A stretch of DNA of 45,953 bases from positions 1 to 45,953 of the forward strand of contig JACPFL010000141.1 in assembly GCA_016183025.1 (NCBI GenBank), given 5' to 3'. Below the pieces are notes generated by a model, which did not search any database, was not told where the DNA came from, and saw only the letters and a program-made list of their open reading frames with translations. Source of the DNA: Deltaproteobacteria bacterium. Lineage in GTDB: Bacteria; Desulfobacterota; JACPFL01. The position numbers and the translations under genes are program-made. Positions 9,719-42,580 of this stretch are shown here, piece by piece. Numbering within the stretch: the stretch's first letter is position 1; every line of letters starts with the position of its first letter.

Positions 9719-10420
9719 TCACCGGGCCGCGGCGTGCAGGGCGCGCTGGCGATTGGCCGCCTGGTGGGCCCAGCGCAGGGGTTCGGGGAGGCGGAACCCC
9801 CGGCAGAGGGTGAGGGTAAGCCGGACGGCGCGGCGGACCGAGAGCCGGTACCCGGGCGAGACGAAGATCGGGCGGACGGCTGTGCGGCTCCGGAGCGCGG
9901 CGCCGAGCACGTGTCGCCCGCTGCGCACCCAGGTGAAGGCGCCAGCCTGGGGGGGTGGCTCCTGGAAGCTCCCGAGGAGCGGCTGCAGGGCACAGCCGAT
10001 GGCGGGGGTCCGGAGCAGGATCCCCAGGTGGGAGGCGAGACCGAGCCCCCGCGGGTGGGCGATCCCGTGGCCATTGAAGAACAGGAGGTCCGGGGAGACC
10101 GTCAGCGCCTCGAAGGCGCGGAGCAGGGCCGGCCCCTCCCGGAAGGCGAGGAGTCCGGGGATGTACGGAAAGGTCACCGGCAGGCTCGCGGCGCGCTGCT
10201 CCACGAGGGTCAGGTCGGGATAGGCGAGCACGACCACCGCGGCGTGCACCAGCGGGGCCGCCTGGTCGTAGGCGGCGTCCGCCCCGGCCACGAGGCGGAG
10301 CCGGCGTGGGCCATCACGAAGCCGGAGGTGGCCTGCCAGCGCCTCCTGGATCGCTGCCGCCCGGTGCGGGCTCACCCGCCAGGGGTGGAGCCGCAGGACA
10401 CGGATGGCTGCGGGGCTCAT
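9719..10420 (-). CDS. nfi: Endonuclease V family protein with altered active-site residues
   Basis: A 233-residue member of the endonuclease V family, which nicks DNA (or RNA) next to deoxyinosine. Family motifs are clear: VAGADAAY (Asp48), FPYIPGLLAFREGP (Glu95), GHGIAHPRGLGLASHLG (His122) and the C-terminal GFRLPEP. However, the metal-ligand Asp of the usual VDGHG is Asn116 (FFNGHG), the Lys of IGVAK is Leu145, and the His of SPGHR is Tyr191. The enzyme may therefore be impaired or have another role; the reading frame is intact, so this is not plain decay. It is convergent with tatC. Confidence 0.8.
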   Translation of the reverse strand: MSPAAIRVLRLHPWRVSPHRAAAIQEALAGHLRLRDGPRRLRLVAGADAAYDQAAPLVHAAVVVLAYPDLTLVEQRAASLPVTFPYIPGLLAFREGPALLRAFEALTVSPDLLFFNGHGIAHPRGLGLASHLGILLRTPAIGCALQPLLGSFQEPPPQAGAFTWVRSGRHVLGAALRSRTAVRPIFVSPGYRLSVRRAVRLTLTLCRGFRLPEPLRWAHQAANRQRALHAAAR

Positions 10421-35446: not shown

Positions 35447-35983
35447 ATGGACCATAGGCCAGGACCCCGGAGGAGAGCTCGGCTGATCGCGGCTGCCCTG
35501 CTCGTGGCGGCCGGGATCGTGACGGCCACCCTGTGGCCCCGGGGGCTGCGGCCCGGCCGCGGGAGCGAGCCCCCGCCCCAGCCCATCGCCTTCAGCCATC
35601 GGGTGCACGCCGGAGAGAACCAGATCCCGTGCCTGTACTGTCACGTGTATGCGCGCCACGGGGCCGTGGCCGGCGTCCCCTCGGTCCAGCGGTGCATGGG
35701 CTGCCACACGATCACCGCTGTCGCGAGCGCCGAGGTCCAGAAACTCCAGGGCTACTGGATGCGCCAGGAGCCCATTGCCTGGGTCCGCGTCTTTCGGCAG
35801 CCCGACTTCGTCTTCTTCCAGCACCGGCCCCACGTGCAGGCTGGGATCGCGTGCCAGACCTGCCATGGGCAGGTCGAGCGGATGGACCGGGTCCGGGAGG
35901 CGGTCGTGCTGGACATGGACCGCTGTGTCGCCTGTCACCGGGCCCAGCAGGCCTCCATCGACTGCCTGACGTGCCATCGCTGA
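35447..35983 (+). CDS. actA: Alternative complex III subunit ActA (pentaheme cytochrome c)
   Basis: A 178-residue protein with an N-terminal membrane anchor (about 11-29) and five heme motifs: CLYCH (62-66), CMGCH (83-87), CQTCH (136-140), CVACH (160-164) and CLTCH (173-177), the pentaheme set of ActA. In the complex it passes electrons from the Fe-S chain of ActB to the monoheme subunit and soluble acceptors. It lies 23 bp after the fused lipoprotein gene and 8 bp before actB. Confidence 0.94.
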   Translation: MDHRPGPRRRARLIAAALLVAAGIVTATLWPRGLRPGRGSEPPPQPIAFSHRVHAGENQIPCLYCHVYARHGAVAGVPSVQRCMGCHTITAVASAEVQKLQGYWMRQEPIAWVRVFRQPDFVFFQHRPHVQAGIACQTCHGQVERMDRVREAVVLDMDRCVACHRAQQASIDCLTCHR

Positions 35984-35991
35984 GGGGGAGC

Positions 35992-38970
35992 ATGAACGTC
36001 ACCCGCCGGGACTTCCTCAAGGTGCTCGGCACCGGAGCCGCCGCGAGCGTGACCGGGTGTTCGGCCCCGCTTCCGGACAAGCTCATCCCGCTGGTCATCC
36101 CAGCCGAGGAGGTCATCCCGGGCGAGGCGACCTGGTATGCGACGGTCTGCCGGGAATGCCCGGCGGGGTGCGGGATGCTCGTTCGGACCCGTGAAGGACG
36201 CGCGGTGAAGGTGGAGGGGAACCCTGACCACCCGGTGAACCAGGGCCGCCTGTGCGCCCGTGGCCAGGCGGCGGTCCAGGGACTCTACAACCCGGACCGG
36301 ATCCGGCAGCCGTTGCGCCGGAGTGGGACGGGAACGCTGGAGCCGGTGAGCTGGGAAGAGGCCGAGCAGCTCCTGGCCGGTCATGTGGCCAGGCTGCAGG
36401 CAGAGGGCCGCCCAGGACGGGTTGCGGTGGTCGCGCCGCTCGTCACGGGGAGCCTGGCACAGCTGATCGAGACATGGAGCCAGGCCGTGGGGGGGCGGCC
36501 CCCGTTGTTCGTGGAGCCGCTGGCTGCGCACGCGCTGCGCGCAGCCAACCGGCTGAGCTTCGGCCTGGATGCCATCCCCTCCTATCAGATCGAGACCCTG
36601 GAACTCCTCGTCTCCTTCAGCACGGACTTCCTGGAGACCTGGCTCTCCCCGGTGGAGCTGGCCCGGCAGTTCGCGGCCATGCGGGCCCCCCGTGCCGGGC
36701 GGATGGGCCGATTCGTCTATCTGGGACCGCGCCTCTCGATGACCGCGACCAATGCGGACGAGTGGCTCCCGCTCCGACCGGGCACGGAGGGGCTGGCGGC
36801 GCTCGGCATGGTGCACCTCATCTTGTCCGAAGGGCTGGGGGCCGGGGTGCCCGCGGAGGAGGCGGGCCGGCTCCGGCAACTCGTGGCCGCGTACACGCCC
36901 GAGGCGGTGGAGCGGCGGACCGGGCTCCCCGCCCGGGACCTGACCCGCCTGGCCCGGAGCCTGGCACAAGCCCGGCCCGGGCTGGCCCTGGGCGGCGGGA
37001 CAGTCGGAACCACCCGGAGCGCGACGACCACGCAGGTGGCAGTGAACCTGCTGAACTACGTCGCCGGGCACGTGGGCAGGGCGATCCAGTTCGGGCCGAC
37101 ATCGGCCCTGGGCCGGGCGGCGACCTACCAGGAGCTGCTCGGCCTTGTCCAGGCCATGGCGCGGGGCGAGATCGACCTGCTCCTGCTGGCCGGGGTGAAC
37201 CCGCTCTTTTCCCTGCCGCCGGCCGCCGGGTTCCAGCAGGCGCTGGCCAAGGTCCCGTTCGTCATCAGCACCGCGAGCTTTCCTGACGAGACCGCCGCGC
37301 ACGCGCACCTCGTGCTGCCGGAGTCCACGCCGCTCGAGAGCTGGGGGGACCATACCCCCTGGGACGGCGTGCATGGGCTGATGCAGCCCGCCACGACGCC
37401 GCTCTACCAGACGAAGCCGCTTGGCGACGTGCTCCTCTCGGTGGCCCGGCGCGTCGGCGGGGCCATGGCCGCGCGGCTCCCGTGGGCGACCTTCTACGAT
37501 GCCCTGCGCGACCGCTGGCGAGAGCTGCAGCGCCGTCTGGCTCCCGCCACGCCCTTCGAGACCTTCTGGGCCGAGGCCCTCCGCCGCGGGGGGGTCTGGG
37601 AGGCGATCCCCCCGAAGCGGGTGCGCCTGAGCCCCGCGGTCTTCCGGACCACCTTCGTGGAACCCGCCTTGAGCGGCAGCCAGGATGATCCGTTCGTGCT
37701 CCTCGTCTACCCATCGATCTTCCGCTACGACGGCCGCGGGGCGAACCGGCCCTGGCTGCAGGAGCTCCCCGATCCTGTCACCGGCATGACCTGGGAGAGT
37801 TGGGTGGAGGTCAACCCCCAGGACGCCCGGCGTCTGGGGATCACCCAGGGCGACCTCGTCGCCCTGCGCTCGCCGCACGGGCAGGTGGAACTCCCCGCCT
37901 ACCTCTACGCTGGAGTGCAGCCGGGCGTGGTCGCAGTGCCGCTGGGACAGGGGCATACCCGCTACGGGCGCTATGCCCAGGGGCGGGGAGCCAACCCCCT
38001 GGCCCTGCTCCCCGCTGAGCCCGAAGCGCCCTCCGGGGCCCTGCCGTGGCTGGCGACCCGGGTCCGGCTCACCCGGACCGGCCGGAGGCAGCCCCTGGCG
38101 ATCGTGGGCGGGAGCGAGCGGCAGGAGGGGCGGGGGATCGCCCAGAGCATTTCGCTCGCTGACCTGCTGCGGGATCACGGCGCGGGAGGCGCGGCACGAC
38201 CGGGCGCGGCCAAGGACGGCGCGGACGGGCACAAGGCCCCGCCCCTGTATCCCCCGCACCCGCACCCGGTCCATCGCTGGGGGATGGCCATTGACCTCAA
38301 CGCCTGCAACGGCTGCGGCGCCTGCGTGGCGGCCTGCTACGCCGAGAACAACATCCCGGTGGTCGGCAAGGAGCAGGTGGCCAAGGGACGGGTGATGTCC
38401 TGGATCCGGATCGAGCGCTTCATCGAGGGGCCGGCCGAGCGCCCGGAGACCCGCTTCCTCCCGATGCTCTGCCAGCACTGTGACAACGCCCCGTGCGAGC
38501 CGGTCTGCCCCGTGTACGCGACCTACCACAACCCCGAGGGGCTCAACGCCCAGGTGTACAACCGCTGCGTCGGCACCCGGTACTGCTCCAACAACTGCCC
38601 CTACAAGGTCCGCCGCTTCAACTGGTTCACGCACAAGTGGCCGGAGCCCCTCCACCTCCAGCTCAACCCGGACGTCACGGTCCGGGAGATGGGGGTGATG
38701 GAGAAGTGCACCTTCTGCGTCCAGCGGATCAAGGGTGGCCAGGCCCGGGCCAAGGCCGAGGGGCGGAAGCTCCGCGACGGGGAGATCGTCCCGGCCTGCG
38801 CGCAGAGCTGCCCGGCGCAGGCCATCGTCTTCGGTGACCTCAAGGACCCGCAGAGCGAGGTCGCCCGCCTGGCCCGGGACCCGCGGGGGTACCGGGTGCT
38901 GGAGGAGCTGAACACGCTGCCCGCCATCACCTACCTGCGCAAGGTGCAGCCGGGACCATTGGGGAGCTGA
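35992..38970 (+). CDS. actB: Alternative complex III subunit ActB (molybdopterin-like and Fe-S domains)
   Basis: A 992-residue periplasmic subunit. A Tat signal (TRRDFLK at 4-10) ends near a possible lipobox (SVTGC, Cys23). The first ~740 residues are a molybdopterin-oxidoreductase-like domain that retains an N-terminal CX2CX3CX27C set (Cys53, 56, 60, 88), though I see no Mo-ligand Cys or Ser in the expected region. From about residue 763 follows an Fe-S domain with four Cys groups (CNGCGACVAAC, CQHCDNAPCEPVC, CVGTRYCSNNC, CTFC...CAQSC). The ATG at 35992 follows GGGGGAG; the upstream in-frame stretch overlaps actA and is not coding. Confidence 0.95.
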   Translation: MNVTRRDFLKVLGTGAAASVTGCSAPLPDKLIPLVIPAEEVIPGEATWYATVCRECPAGCGMLVRTREGRAVKVEGNPDHPVNQGRLCARGQAAVQGLYNPDRIRQPLRRSGTGTLEPVSWEEAEQLLAGHVARLQAEGRPGRVAVVAPLVTGSLAQLIETWSQAVGGRPPLFVEPLAAHALRAANRLSFGLDAIPSYQIETLELLVSFSTDFLETWLSPVELARQFAAMRAPRAGRMGRFVYLGPRLSMTATNADEWLPLRPGTEGLAALGMVHLILSEGLGAGVPAEEAGRLRQLVAAYTPEAVERRTGLPARDLTRLARSLAQARPGLALGGGTVGTTRSATTTQVAVNLLNYVAGHVGRAIQFGPTSALGRAATYQELLGLVQAMARGEIDLLLLAGVNPLFSLPPAAGFQQALAKVPFVISTASFPDETAAHAHLVLPESTPLESWGDHTPWDGVHGLMQPATTPLYQTKPLGDVLLSVARRVGGAMAARLPWATFYDALRDRWRELQRRLAPATPFETFWAEALRRGGVWEAIPPKRVRLSPAVFRTTFVEPALSGSQDDPFVLLVYPSIFRYDGRGANRPWLQELPDPVTGMTWESWVEVNPQDARRLGITQGDLVALRSPHGQVELPAYLYAGVQPGVVAVPLGQGHTRYGRYAQGRGANPLALLPAEPEAPSGALPWLATRVRLTRTGRRQPLAIVGGSERQEGRGIAQSISLADLLRDHGAGGAARPGAAKDGADGHKAPPLYPPHPHPVHRWGMAIDLNACNGCGACVAACYAENNIPVVGKEQVAKGRVMSWIRIERFIEGPAERPETRFLPMLCQHCDNAPCEPVCPVYATYHNPEGLNAQVYNRCVGTRYCSNNCPYKVRRFNWFTHKWPEPLHLQLNPDVTVREMGVMEKCTFCVQRIKGGQARAKAEGRKLRDGEIVPACAQSCPAQAIVFGDLKDPQSEVARLARDPRGYRVLEELNTLPAITYLRKVQPGPLGS

Positions 38971-38993
38971 GGGGGGGCCCAGGCCTGCGGACG

Positions 38994-40316
38994 ATGGAGG
39001 CGCCGCTCACGTACGCCCGGGTGGACCGGGACCTCCTCACGACGCTGCGGGCGCCAGGGAGGCTCTATTACGCCCTGCTGGCCGTGGACCTGGCGGTCCT
39101 GGGCTGGGCGATCTATGCCTGGCGCTATCAGCTTACGACCGGCCTGGGCGTGGCGGGGATCACCCACCCGGTCATGTGGGCGGTCTACATCACGAACTTC
39201 GTCTTCTGGGTCGGCATCGCCCACTCCGGCACGCTCATCTCGGCCATCCTCTACCTGTTTCGGGTGCGCTGGCGCCCGCCGGTCTACCGGAGCGCCGAGG
39301 CCGTGACCGTGTTCGCCCTGATGACGGCCGGGCTGTTTCCCATCATCCACCTGGGCCGCCCCTGGTACTTCTACTGGCTCCTCCCCTACCCGCAGATGGG
39401 CGGGCTCTGGATCAACTTCCGCTCTCCGCTGATCTGGGACGTGTTCGCGGTCCTGACCTACATGACCGTGAGCGTCATCTTCTTCTTCACGGGGCTGGTC
39501 CCGGACGTGGCCGTGGCGCGCGACCAGGCGACCGGGTGGCGGCGCCGGATCTACGGGCTACTCGCCCAGGGGTGGCAGGGAACGGATCGCCAGTGGCGCC
39601 ACTACACGAGCGCCTACCTGCTGTTCGCCGGGCTGGCCACGGCGCTCGTGGTCTCGGTCCACAGCGTGGTCTCCTGGGACTTCGCCATGGCCATCCTGCC
39701 GGGGTGGCACAGCACGATCTTCGCCCCCTACTTCGTCGCCGGGGCCATCCACTCGGGGCTGGCCATGGTCCTGGCGCTCCTCATCCCGCTGCGGCGGGCC
39801 TTTCGCCTGGAGGCCTACCTCACACCAGACCACCTGGAGCGCCTGGCCCAGCTCACCATCGTCACGGGGCTGATCGTGGGGTATGCCTACATGGTCGAGT
39901 ACGGGATGGCCTGGTACACCGGGGACCCCGCCGAGCAGGCGAGCTTCCTGTGGCGGGCCACCGGGCATTACGCCTGGGCCTTCTGGCTCATGGTCGGCTG
40001 CAATGTCCTCGCCCCCCTCGGCTTCTGTGCCCGGCAGGTCCGGAGAAGCATGCCCTGGCTCCTCGGGATCCTGGCCAACCACGGCCGGGAAGCCGCCCGC
40101 ACCGCTGCCCGGCACCCCGATCCCCAGCGTCTCGCGGTGCGCACGCCGGAAAGCCCGGCCGTTTCGGCGGCCGACGCCTGGTTCTTCCTGTGGTTCCTGC
40201 TCTTCGCCAAGACGCTCCCGGTGGTCTCGCTCTGGGAGGTGAAGGAGCTGCTGCCGGTGCCGCGGCGAGATGGCCGGGGCCCGGTGCAGGAAGGGCCGGC
40301 AGGGAGACAGCCGTGA
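38994..40316 (+). CDS. actC: Alternative complex III subunit ActC (NrfD-like quinol-binding membrane subunit), atypical C-terminal part
   Basis: A 440-residue membrane protein of the NrfD/PsrC family that takes part in quinol oxidation. Typical segments are HPVMWAVYITNFVFWVGIAH, FPIIHLGRPWYFYWLLPYPQ and WSTTIFAP-like WHSTIFAPYFVAGAIHSG. After RRSMPWLLGI, where homologues continue with a helix containing GMWLERF, this protein has about 36 hydrophilic residues (NHGREAARTAARHPDPQR...) before the last helix (WFFLWFLLFAKTLPVVSLWE). Neither other frame supplies the missing helix, so a simple indel does not explain it. The stop overlaps the next start (GTGA). Confidence 0.92.
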   Translation: MEAPLTYARVDRDLLTTLRAPGRLYYALLAVDLAVLGWAIYAWRYQLTTGLGVAGITHPVMWAVYITNFVFWVGIAHSGTLISAILYLFRVRWRPPVYRSAEAVTVFALMTAGLFPIIHLGRPWYFYWLLPYPQMGGLWINFRSPLIWDVFAVLTYMTVSVIFFFTGLVPDVAVARDQATGWRRRIYGLLAQGWQGTDRQWRHYTSAYLLFAGLATALVVSVHSVVSWDFAMAILPGWHSTIFAPYFVAGAIHSGLAMVLALLIPLRRAFRLEAYLTPDHLERLAQLTIVTGLIVGYAYMVEYGMAWYTGDPAEQASFLWRATGHYAWAFWLMVGCNVLAPLGFCARQVRRSMPWLLGILANHGREAARTAARHPDPQRLAVRTPESPAVSAADAWFFLWFLLFAKTLPVVSLWEVKELLPVPRRDGRGPVQEGPAGRQP

Positions 40317-40828
40317 GGGCGCGGGAGAGCTTCGTGGTGGGATTCTTCCCCCACCTGGACGGGCTGCTGGCGGCGATCGCCGCGCTCAAGGGCGCGGGGT
40401 TCCTGGAGCTCCAGGCCCTCTCGCCCGTGCCCCGACACGAGATCGACGAGGCCCTGGGCGCGCATCGCAGCCCGGTGCGGGTCTTTACCCTGCTCGGTGG
40501 GCTCGCCGGCTGCGCGACCGGCTTCGCCCTGACCATCGGGGCCGCGCTCCACTACCCGCTGATCGTGGGGGGGAAGCCGATCATCTCCATCCCGCCGTTC
40601 GTCGTCATCGCCTACGAGCTGACGATCCTGCTCGGGGCCCTGGGGACGCTGGTCGGGCTCCTGCTCAGCGCGGGGCTCCCGCGCGCACGGCGGTGGCCGG
40701 GGTACGATCCAAAGTTGGCCGGCACCTGCTTCGGCCTGCAGGTCCGGTGTCCCACCCTGGAGACCTCGAGGGCAGAGGCGCAGATGCTCGCTGCCGGTGC
40801 CCGGGAGGTGCGTCGTGTGGAGGGGTAG
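40313..40828 (+). CDS. actD: Alternative complex III subunit ActD (DUF3341)
   Basis: A 171-residue protein with the DUF3341 pattern: FVVGFFPHLDGLLAAIAALK, then LQALSPVPRHEIDEALG, two transmembrane helices (about 60-80 and 100-125), and the C-terminal segment around CFGLQVRCP. It is an integral subunit with a cytoplasmic N-terminal domain. The GTG at 40313 overlaps the actC stop and follows GGGAGACAGCC. The final ~12 codons overlap the start of actE. Confidence 0.93.
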   Translation: MRARESFVVGFFPHLDGLLAAIAALKGAGFLELQALSPVPRHEIDEALGAHRSPVRVFTLLGGLAGCATGFALTIGAALHYPLIVGGKPIISIPPFVVIAYELTILLGALGTLVGLLLSAGLPRARRWPGYDPKLAGTCFGLQVRCPTLETSRAEAQMLAAGAREVRRVEG

Positions 40829-41336
40829 GCAGCCTGGCGGGTTCTGGCTCCCGGTGGTGCTCATGCTCGCCGCAGCCTTCTCGCTCCTGACCGGCGCGCG
40901 GCTGGCCTCAGGCTTTCCGTGGAGCCGGGACATGAAGAACCAGCCGTCGGTGAAGCCCCAGGAGGCCCCCCGCCCCCCTGCCAGGGGGACCGTGCCGCGC
41001 GAGCGGTGGGAGCCCCCGATCCCGACCAAGGGCGCGGCCACGGCCCTCCGGAACCCGGTCCAGGCCACACCAGCCTCCATCGCGAACGGCCGGCGCCTGT
41101 ACCAGATCTACTGCCTGCTCTGTCACGGGGCCGACGGGAAAGGGTTTGGGCCGATCACCGACAAATACGTCCCGGCCGCGGATTTGACCGGGAAGGCCGC
41201 GCGCGCGCAGCCCGACGGAGCCCTGTACCAGGCCATCCGGAGCGGGGGCGCGCTCATGCCCCGGTACGATGACGCCCTGACGCCTTCGGAGCGGTGGGAC
41301 GTCATCAACTACCTTCGGAGCCTGCAGCAGCCGTGA
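40815..41336 (+). CDS. actE: Alternative complex III subunit ActE (monoheme cytochrome c)
   Basis: A 173-residue membrane-anchored monoheme cytochrome. The anchor (FWLPVVLMLAAAFSLLTG) is followed by the ActE-type stretch MKNQPSVKPQEAPRPPARGT, then the heme motif CLLCH and Met in ALMPRYDD as sixth ligand. The GTG at 40815 follows GGGAGG by six bases and overlaps actD by 14 bases; 40797 is the alternative. It receives electrons from ActA. Confidence 0.93.
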   Translation: MWRGRQPGGFWLPVVLMLAAAFSLLTGARLASGFPWSRDMKNQPSVKPQEAPRPPARGTVPRERWEPPIPTKGAATALRNPVQATPASIANGRRLYQIYCLLCHGADGKGFGPITDKYVPAADLTGKAARAQPDGALYQAIRSGGALMPRYDDALTPSERWDVINYLRSLQQP

Positions 41337-42580
41337 ACGCCCGTCCTCACGCGCGCCCGAGATGGCCATCGGGACCGGTCATTGGCGGGCTGGTCGCGCT
41401 CCTCCTGCTGGGGGGTGCGGGGTTTCTCGAGGGCCTGGCGGCCGAGCCGTCCCGGGCCTGGCCGGTCTACCTGGTGAACTTCCTGTTCTGGGCAGGGCTG
41501 GCCCAGGCCGGGGTCACCTTCGCGGCGCTGCACCAGATCACCGGATCGCGCTGGGGGCCCGCAGTCCGCCGTCTCGCTGAGGGGATGGGGGCCTTCCTCC
41601 CCGCCGCACTCCTCCTCTTCCTGCCGCTTGTCCCCGGCCGGGCGTGGCTCTTCCCCTGGCTGCAGGAGCCGCTCCCGCAGAAGGCCTGGTGGCTGGACGC
41701 CCCTAGGCTCTTCCTGCGGGATGGGGGCGGGCTCATCCTGCTCACGTGGGTCAGCCTCCTGTTCGTCCGCTACTCGCTCCGCCCGGAGCTGGGGGAGGCC
41801 ATCGCCCAGGGGCAGCTCCCGCCACGGGGTCTGGCCGCGTGGCTCGCCAACGGCTGGCAGGGGCTCGCTGCCGAGCGCGCGCGCTCCCGGCGGGCCCTCA
41901 GCGTCCTGGCCCCAGCGGTCCTGCTGATCTACTGCCTGGTCTGGAGCCTGCTCGGGTTCGACCTCGTCATGTCGCTGAGCCCGGCCTGGTCGAGCACGCT
42001 CTTCGGCGCCTACATCTTCCTCACGACCTTCTACCTCGGCCTGGCCGGCCTCGCGGTGCTCGCCGTCCTGCTCCGGAAGCCGTGCGGGCTGCTGGGGCAT
42101 GTCGCGTCGGCCCAGCTCCACGACCTGGGCAAGCTCCTGCTGGGCTTCTGCATGCTGACCGGGTACTTCTTCTTCTCGCAGTACCTCGTGATCTGGTACG
42201 GCAACCTGCCGCGGGAGTACGGGTTCTTCCTGGTGCGCGGGGAAGGGGCCTGGGGGCCGCTCGCCTGGACGGTGCTCGGCCTGGTCGTCTTCCTGCCGTT
42301 CGTCGTCCTGCTGAGCCGCCGGGCCAAGGAGCGACCGGGGAGCCTGCTGGCCCTGACGCTGGTGATCGTGGTGGGGATGTGGCTGGAGCGCTACGTGTTG
42401 GTCGTCCCCTCGCTCGCGCCGGCGCGCGGGCCGGCCTTCGGCTGGGTGGAGCTCTCCACCACGCTCGGCTTCCTGGCCGCCGCGGCCCTCAGCTACGCGG
42501 GCTTCGTGCGGATCCTCCCCCCGGGCGCGCTGGTCCCGGAGCCCGGCCGGGAGGCGCTCCCCCCGGACCGCGCCTGCTGA
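41333..42580 (+). CDS. actF: Alternative complex III subunit ActF
   Basis: A 415-residue membrane protein, paralogue-like to ActC but without quinol-site features I can confirm. About ten helices are visible, including WPVYLVNFLFWAGLAQAGVT near the N terminus, FDLVMSLSPAWSSTLFGAYI, and LTLVIVVGMWLERYVLVVPS, which holds the GMWLERY motif that ActC here lacks. The GTG at 41333 overlaps the actE stop. It is the last gene of the operon: no terminal oxidase gene or actG follows, and a hairpin lies 32 bp after the stop. Confidence 0.92.
   Translation: MNARPHARPRWPSGPVIGGLVALLLLGGAGFLEGLAAEPSRAWPVYLVNFLFWAGLAQAGVTFAALHQITGSRWGPAVRRLAEGMGAFLPAALLLFLPLVPGRAWLFPWLQEPLPQKAWWLDAPRLFLRDGGGLILLTWVSLLFVRYSLRPELGEAIAQGQLPPRGLAAWLANGWQGLAAERARSRRALSVLAPAVLLIYCLVWSLLGFDLVMSLSPAWSSTLFGAYIFLTTFYLGLAGLAVLAVLLRKPCGLLGHVASAQLHDLGKLLLGFCMLTGYFFFSQYLVIWYGNLPREYGFFLVRGEGAWGPLAWTVLGLVVFLPFVVLLSRRAKERPGSLLALTLVIVVGMWLERYVLVVPSLAPARGPAFGWVELSTTLGFLAAAALSYAGFVRILPPGALVPEPGREALPPDRAC

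Follow-up and report, generated by a model that had tools for sequence, protein, structure and literature searches.

The window examined here (45,953 nucleotides) is an entire contig (C219) of a metagenome-like draft genome of 3.68 Mb in 308 contigs, 90.31% complete, which is the sole member of its class among the genomes compared. On the minus strand, at positions 9719-10420, lies an intact open reading frame of 233 amino acids, containing neither frameshift nor stop and flanked by tatA-tatC and by a GAF/histidine kinase/receiver gene. The Endonuclease V (EndoV) profile PF04493 covers this frame from profile position 3 to 198 out of 198 (E-value 2.5e-64, 217 bits, cut-off 23.4) and was the sole match of the protein in a Pfam scan at E ≤ 0.001, in which DUF99 did not appear. 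The GC content by codon position (0.80/0.55/0.91) is of the coding type and follows the same pattern as that of the neighbour genes. An earlier note, made from the sequence alone, had placed an intact EndoV-family frame here, and the profile match, the GC pattern and the modelled fold (see below) all bear this out. The genome carries one EndoV copy; the search for a second, canonical nfi gene that the same note had proposed was run on the draft (90.3% complete) and none was found. In another part of the window (35533-42580), a run of genes resembles, by eye, a respiratory complex (a molybdopterin/Fe-S fusion and two NrfD-like membrane proteins).

Three residues had been singled out as altered key positions, i.e., N116 (codon AAT, 10073-10075, minus strand), L145 (codon CTG, 9986-9988, minus strand) and Y191 (codon TAC, 9848-9850, minus strand), and the letters were right in all three cases. 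In the alignment to the EndoV of T. maritima, they correspond, respectively, to the metal-ligand Asp D110, to the phosphate-aligning Lys K139 and to H185. A first survey of EndoV sequences gave D in 195, E in 5, N in 3 and S in 2 of the 205 rows with a letter at position 110, and K in 202 out of 207 rows at position 139; at position 185, the 206 letters were H (178), N (14), Y (8), F (5) and W (1). Since column 185 is variable, Y191 is not an altered key residue, the functional C-terminal histidine (H214) being kept as H219 (codon CAC, 9764-9766, minus strand), and the finding reduces to D110N and K139L. The search patterns of this first survey included the peptide FNGHGIAH, which favours N-type rows and biases the frequencies obtained. 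The other family motifs were correctly described as intact: among the 41 columns conserved in at least 90% of 237 aligned EndoVs, the window protein differs at 110 and 139 only, and when the columns were chosen without it, on 329 rows, it differed at none of the 37 conserved ones, columns 110 and 139 themselves falling below 90% conservation in that set.

It is known that in EndoV the Mg2+ ion is contacted by D43, residue 89 and D110, that the 5' phosphate is locked by K139 and H214, and that the base pocket is built from the backbone (PMC4650699); Asp43, Glu89 and Asp110 of the T. maritima enzyme have been termed crucial for activity (PMC5561087). In the window protein the metal triad is incomplete, as D48 (codon GAC, 10277-10279, minus strand; the metal ligand D43) and E95 (codon GAG, 10136-10138, minus strand; the metal-site Glu E89) are present and D110 is replaced by N116. 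The phosphate lock, defined as K139 with H214 (or D), is incomplete as well, L145 standing for K139 and H219 for H214. H122 (T. maritima H116) is present, together with the inosine-recognition wedge FPYIPG, which includes the PYIP motif by which the wedge was scored. The backbone pocket, defined in T. maritima numbering by G83, L85, G111, G113, G121 and L142, is also found, with L91, G117, G119, G127 and L148 among the base-pocket residues of the window protein. H118 (codon CAC, 10067-10069, minus strand) lies at the place of T. maritima Q112.

The AlphaFold2 model of the protein has an intact fold (mean pLDDT 95.8, pTM 0.92), and its best Foldseek matches are EndoV structures (TMq 0.91-0.92, rmsd 1.2), which assigns it to the RNase H-like EndoV fold. 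The nearest PDB structure is the T. maritima EndoV with DNA (2w36, TMq 0.91). Ranks 4 and 5 are occupied by 6ozf, an artificial T. maritima D110N protein with uncut inosine DNA, and 6ozq, the mouse EndoV K155M with RNA, is found further down the list; by its described role, mouse K155 is probably the equivalent of K139. In the window protein and in the 6ozf mutant, the corresponding Asp is replaced by Asn, and an NG dipeptide results in both; however, 6ozf is a laboratory mutant in which K139 is intact, whereas the window protein is natural and has lost the lysine too. In the mouse enzyme, K155 is reported to serve in aligning the scissile phosphate, and nuclease activity is interrupted when this residue is substituted (PMC9363430); it has also been reported that stable EndoV-DNA complexes are supported by Ca2+ alone (PMC4650699).

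Compared with the bacterial EndoV (Nfi; T. maritima 2w35/2w36, E. coli 4xpu), the window protein has the same fold (TM 0.91 to 2w36), 37-42% identity, the wedge FPYIPG, the backbone pocket and the equivalents of D43, E89, H116 and H214, but it is without D110 and K139 and remains under the cut-off of NF008629. Deoxyribonuclease V activity consists in a cut at the second phosphodiester bond 3' of deoxyinosine. The window protein scores 225.5 bits against NF008629, the NCBIfam equivalog for this enzyme, just under the 230-bit cut-off, and since two catalytic residues also fail, it is not to be filed as a deoxyribonuclease V; by its profile match and predicted fold, it is a member of the EndoV family. 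The DUF99/Endo_dU proteins share with it an EndoV-like RNase H fold and an incomplete metal tetrad (PMC11585767), but they form another family, in which the missing residue is the first Asp.

The survey was extended around the two N110 rows, besides the window, that had turned up at first, one from Methanoregula (L066) and the other from Nitrospirota (L074). In the Nitrospirota order of the latter, two genomes have a match, L074 itself and G399 (60% identical), and both are N/Q, i.e., N at 110 and Q at 139; 28 further rows of the phylum, taken among the best 30 of 113 matching genomes, are all D/K. Methanomicrobiales, chosen for the search since an N-type had turned up there, have an EndoV match in 71 of 150 genomes, always in one copy. 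Leaving out G462 (a fragment without position 110) and G529, position 110 could be read in 69 genomes, giving 12 N, 18 H, 1 P and 38 D, so that 30/69 carry an N/H form. Among the 294 genomes of the archaeal phylum with a match, this order and 20 further places were read, and the 20 places are all D/K. At least nine low-scoring genomes were left out (G082, G090, G124, G130, G159, G179, G204, G259 and G323), and the copies of the window itself (L001, L083), rows with an identical core, and L025, L081 and L290, which have no letter at 110 or 139, were dropped ahead of the counts. A single EndoV copy is also found in G395-G398. A published paper in which both endonuclease V and Methanomicrobiales are named (PMC6202378) presents a presence/absence map.

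Other departures at these positions were encountered as well. Two Nitrospirae rows (L067 and L070, mutually 92% identical, dN/dS 0.23) have S110 with the lysine kept. In family f8, from the phylum of the window, five rows are E110, two of them with Arg139, and a sixth is D with R (L013, L022, L084, L086, L089 and L101). One Methanomicrobiales protein (L285, genome G457) combines P110 with G43, I89 and R139, its entire metal site being gone and its frame open. The archaeal genome G1203 harbors two full EndoV copies (L380 and L381), both D/K.

The final set used for the analysis of the two positions comprised 326 aligned EndoV rows with letters at both. K139 is present in 283 of the 285 D110 rows and absent from 13/15 N110 and 18/18 H110 rows (31/33 in total), as well as from 2/5 E110, 0/2 S110 and 1/1 P110 rows; on the whole, the lysine is absent in 34/41 non-D rows versus 2/285 D rows (Fisher p 8e-37, on rows that are not independent). 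The residue found in its place is D (9), G (8) or E (1) in the 18 H110 rows, and the N110 rows have G (4), Q (3), S (3), K (2), L (1, the window), E (1) and R (1) at this position. With G, D, S, Q, E, L or R taking the place of K139 in the N/H rows, the pattern is a relaxed one. All 33 N/H rows have D43, E89, Y46, H112 and H125, and His at 112, present in 33/33 of them, occurs in 49/285 D rows. The window protein shares with the N/H forms of Methanomicrobiales and of the one Nitrospirota order N110 or H110, the loss of K139, H112, D43 and E89, and it differs from them in its separate position in the tree and in having L at 139, where the others have Q, G, S, E, R or D.

On the EndoV tree (274 rows), Asp110 changes at least 11 times. 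A tree-aware test on seven independent supported pairs found, on average, that the lysine changed the same way in 5.2, the opposite way in 0.2 and showed no difference in 1.6 of them, with a median sign-test p of 0.0625 (range 0.016-0.63). The coupling of 110 with 139 thus appears strong across rows and borderline once relatedness is counted. For H112, which is the same in most pairs, the tree-aware test was not significant. Nei-Gojobori dN/dS was 0.20-0.54 for 19 pairs within the N/H-type clades and 0.26-0.57 for the six finite canonical pairs, a seventh being saturated; these values are rough, since as many as 25 codons preceding the match were included in the stretches compared. Judged from them, the altered archaeal EndoVs are under purifying selection, about as tight as that on the canonical ones. 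The paired loss has arisen repeatedly in other bacteria and archaea, which makes it probable that the window protein is a functioning variant and not the product of a dying gene.

These results bear on two less favoured accounts of the altered pair. A sequencing, assembly or binning artefact might be suspected in a metagenome-like draft of 308 contigs and 90.3% completeness, in which a single base would yield N116; however, no fewer than three base changes would be required to produce both N116 and L145 (G>A in codon 116 and two in codon 145), all in frame and hitting the exact pair that covaries elsewhere, and the tetranucleotide profile of the window agrees with that of another contig of the genome, C5 (r 0.97), which makes this account very improbable. 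It might also be supposed that EndoV activity was lost recently in the window lineage, the gene being yet undegraded and the recurrence elsewhere representing unrelated losses. The nearest tree neighbours of the window EndoV (L020, L105 and L087) are all canonical D/K, the Asn codon AAT is one step from GAT in a gene with a GC3 of 0.91, and L285 offers an example of an open EndoV frame deprived of its metal site. Against this, 39 of the 41 conserved columns are intact (37/37 when the columns were chosen without the window) in a frame with no frameshift and no stop, the change from K to L requires two base changes, and the pair arises repeatedly, with archaeal examples under purifying selection; plain decay is accordingly rated as rather unlikely. 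The relatives that the earlier note had proposed as a check on decay turned out to be D/K, but the best identity of any relative to the window protein is 52%, and with no close relative in the collections searched that could show fixation, their D/K state indicates neither recent decay nor fixation.

Two further ideas on the locus were examined and rejected. A phage origin of the window EndoV was rejected, the four viral EndoVs found being all D/K. The all-against-all comparison of the open reading frames around 22 altered loci and the window disclosed no neighbour common to the lineages, and a conserved partner gene was likewise rejected; neighbour sharing around altered loci was hydrogenase-type and other synteny inside archaeal clades only, and the single cluster linking the window to another locus consists of a long, possibly spurious, open reading frame.

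The explanation that we place first, to which we give about an even chance, is that the window protein is a folded EndoV that would still recognise inosine or deoxyinosine and would cut poorly or not at all. The wedge FPYIPG and the backbone pocket would keep the recognition of inosine-bearing nucleic acid, and cleavage would be impaired because the protein lacks both a ligand of the catalytic metal (D110N) and the lysine by which the scissile phosphate is aligned (K139L). The joint change of 110 and 139 might then be explained by the fact that both serve metal-assisted cutting, so that, once one is lost, the other would no longer be held. It is known that EndoV remains on deoxyinosine after cleavage and may recruit other proteins (PMC4357722). 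The protein might act as a marker bound to the lesion or to inosine, protecting the site or handing it over to another enzyme that cuts, for which the endonuclease Q (EndoQ) homologue of the same genome would be a candidate. The suggestion of the earlier note that the protein is binding-only or repurposed fits the recurrence of the paired change under purifying selection, and "binding-only" is a fair leading guess; it sits less well with D43 and E89, kept in all 33 N/H-type rows, which is odd if the metal site is unneeded. Their retention means that a metal may still be held, perhaps for binding. The borderline outcome of the tree-aware test (median p 0.06) also weighs against a cleavage-impaired binder, and so do the EndoV-like Endo_dU proteins, which cleave despite their incomplete metal tetrad (PMC11585767).

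The same observations would suit a nuclease that has been re-tuned, in which N or H at 110, together with D43, E89 and the invariant His112 (in certain archaeal forms also D139), would bind a metal in an altered geometry or prefer another metal (Mn2+, Zn2+ or Fe2+) or another substrate. The invariance of D43, E89, H112, H125 and Y46 in the 33 N/H rows, set against the limited presence of H112 among D rows, speaks for it, as does a charge swap of the D-K pair in 10/18 H110 rows, where residue 139 is acidic (D or E); H112 and the H110-D139 swap are the best hints, and Endo_dU provides a precedent for cleavage by a protein whose tetrad is incomplete (PMC11585767). However, G, S, Q and L at 139 are as frequent as any potential metal binder, the N/L pair of the window offers no metal- or phosphate-binding residue at that position, and the archaeal EndoQ pattern described below fits a loss of deoxyinosine cutting better, with a phylogenetic caveat. 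A re-tuned nuclease is the main rival to the cleavage-impaired binder and is considered possible, though on the unlikely side. There is also the point that an N-G pair is a classic site for spontaneous Asn deamidation, by which N116 may be partially converted to Asp in the cell.

EndoQ, which cleaves 5' of deoxyinosine (PMC4357722), was searched for with the profile TIGR00375; when the matches were checked against the solved PfuEndoQ, the archaeal one gave an E-value of 7e-101 and that of the window genome, located on contig C5, gave 1e-44, all the archaeal matches except three, and that of the window genome too, failing to reach the curated cut-off of TIGR00375. In Methanomicrobiales, EndoQ was found in 30/30 genomes with an N/H-type EndoV, in the single P-type one (1/1) and in 13/37 canonical ones, and among the 79 genomes of the order for which no EndoV was matched, 71 have it, two of them as weak fragments. 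The raw contrast between altered EndoV and EndoQ is strong (Fisher p 3.7e-9) but, given the few evolutionary changes involved, it is confounded by phylogeny: on the EndoV tree, the two features went the same way in 0.8 of four independent pairs, and the link is unsupported once phylogeny is counted. It is suggestive only that altered genomes resemble the EndoV-less ones in EndoQ, as would be expected if the altered EndoV had stopped cutting deoxyinosine. A hand-over to EndoQ is further disfavoured by the TIGR00375 search of the two Nitrospirota genomes with an N/Q form (G395 and G399), in which EndoQ is absent, and by a study in Pyrococcus in which direct contact between EndoQ and EndoV was not found (PMC8438529). 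In one methanogen clade, a distance of about 16-20 kb separates EndoV from EndoQ on the same contig, in G446, G440, G458, G422, G434 and G416 and also in the canonical G410, G404 and G428.

Beyond the single protein, a broader proposal may be advanced, tentatively and at a little under even odds. The coupled switch from D110-K139 to N/H110 with a non-Lys 139, always accompanied by His112, D43 and E89, would define an undescribed class of EndoV, arisen several times in bacteria and archaea, having taken the place of the canonical nuclease as the sole EndoV copy and being kept by selection for a new job, either as an inosine reader that passes lesions on to EndoQ or some other enzyme, or as a nuclease with a different metal. 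In the literature searched, most subscription papers being outside its scope, no description of a natural EndoV without the metal-ligand Asp was found.

EndoV is a widespread repair enzyme, and a natural, recurring, single-copy form without two of its catalytic residues would, if the above holds, mean that there is value in retaining its binding function by itself, or else a different chemistry. The altered EndoVs would then represent ready-made natural proteins for trapping inosine substrates. In at least one large order of methanogens, where the altered form is found in 30 of the 69 readable genomes, the annotation "deoxyribonuclease V" is unsafe, and the link with EndoQ turns the division of work between EndoV and EndoQ into a directly testable question.
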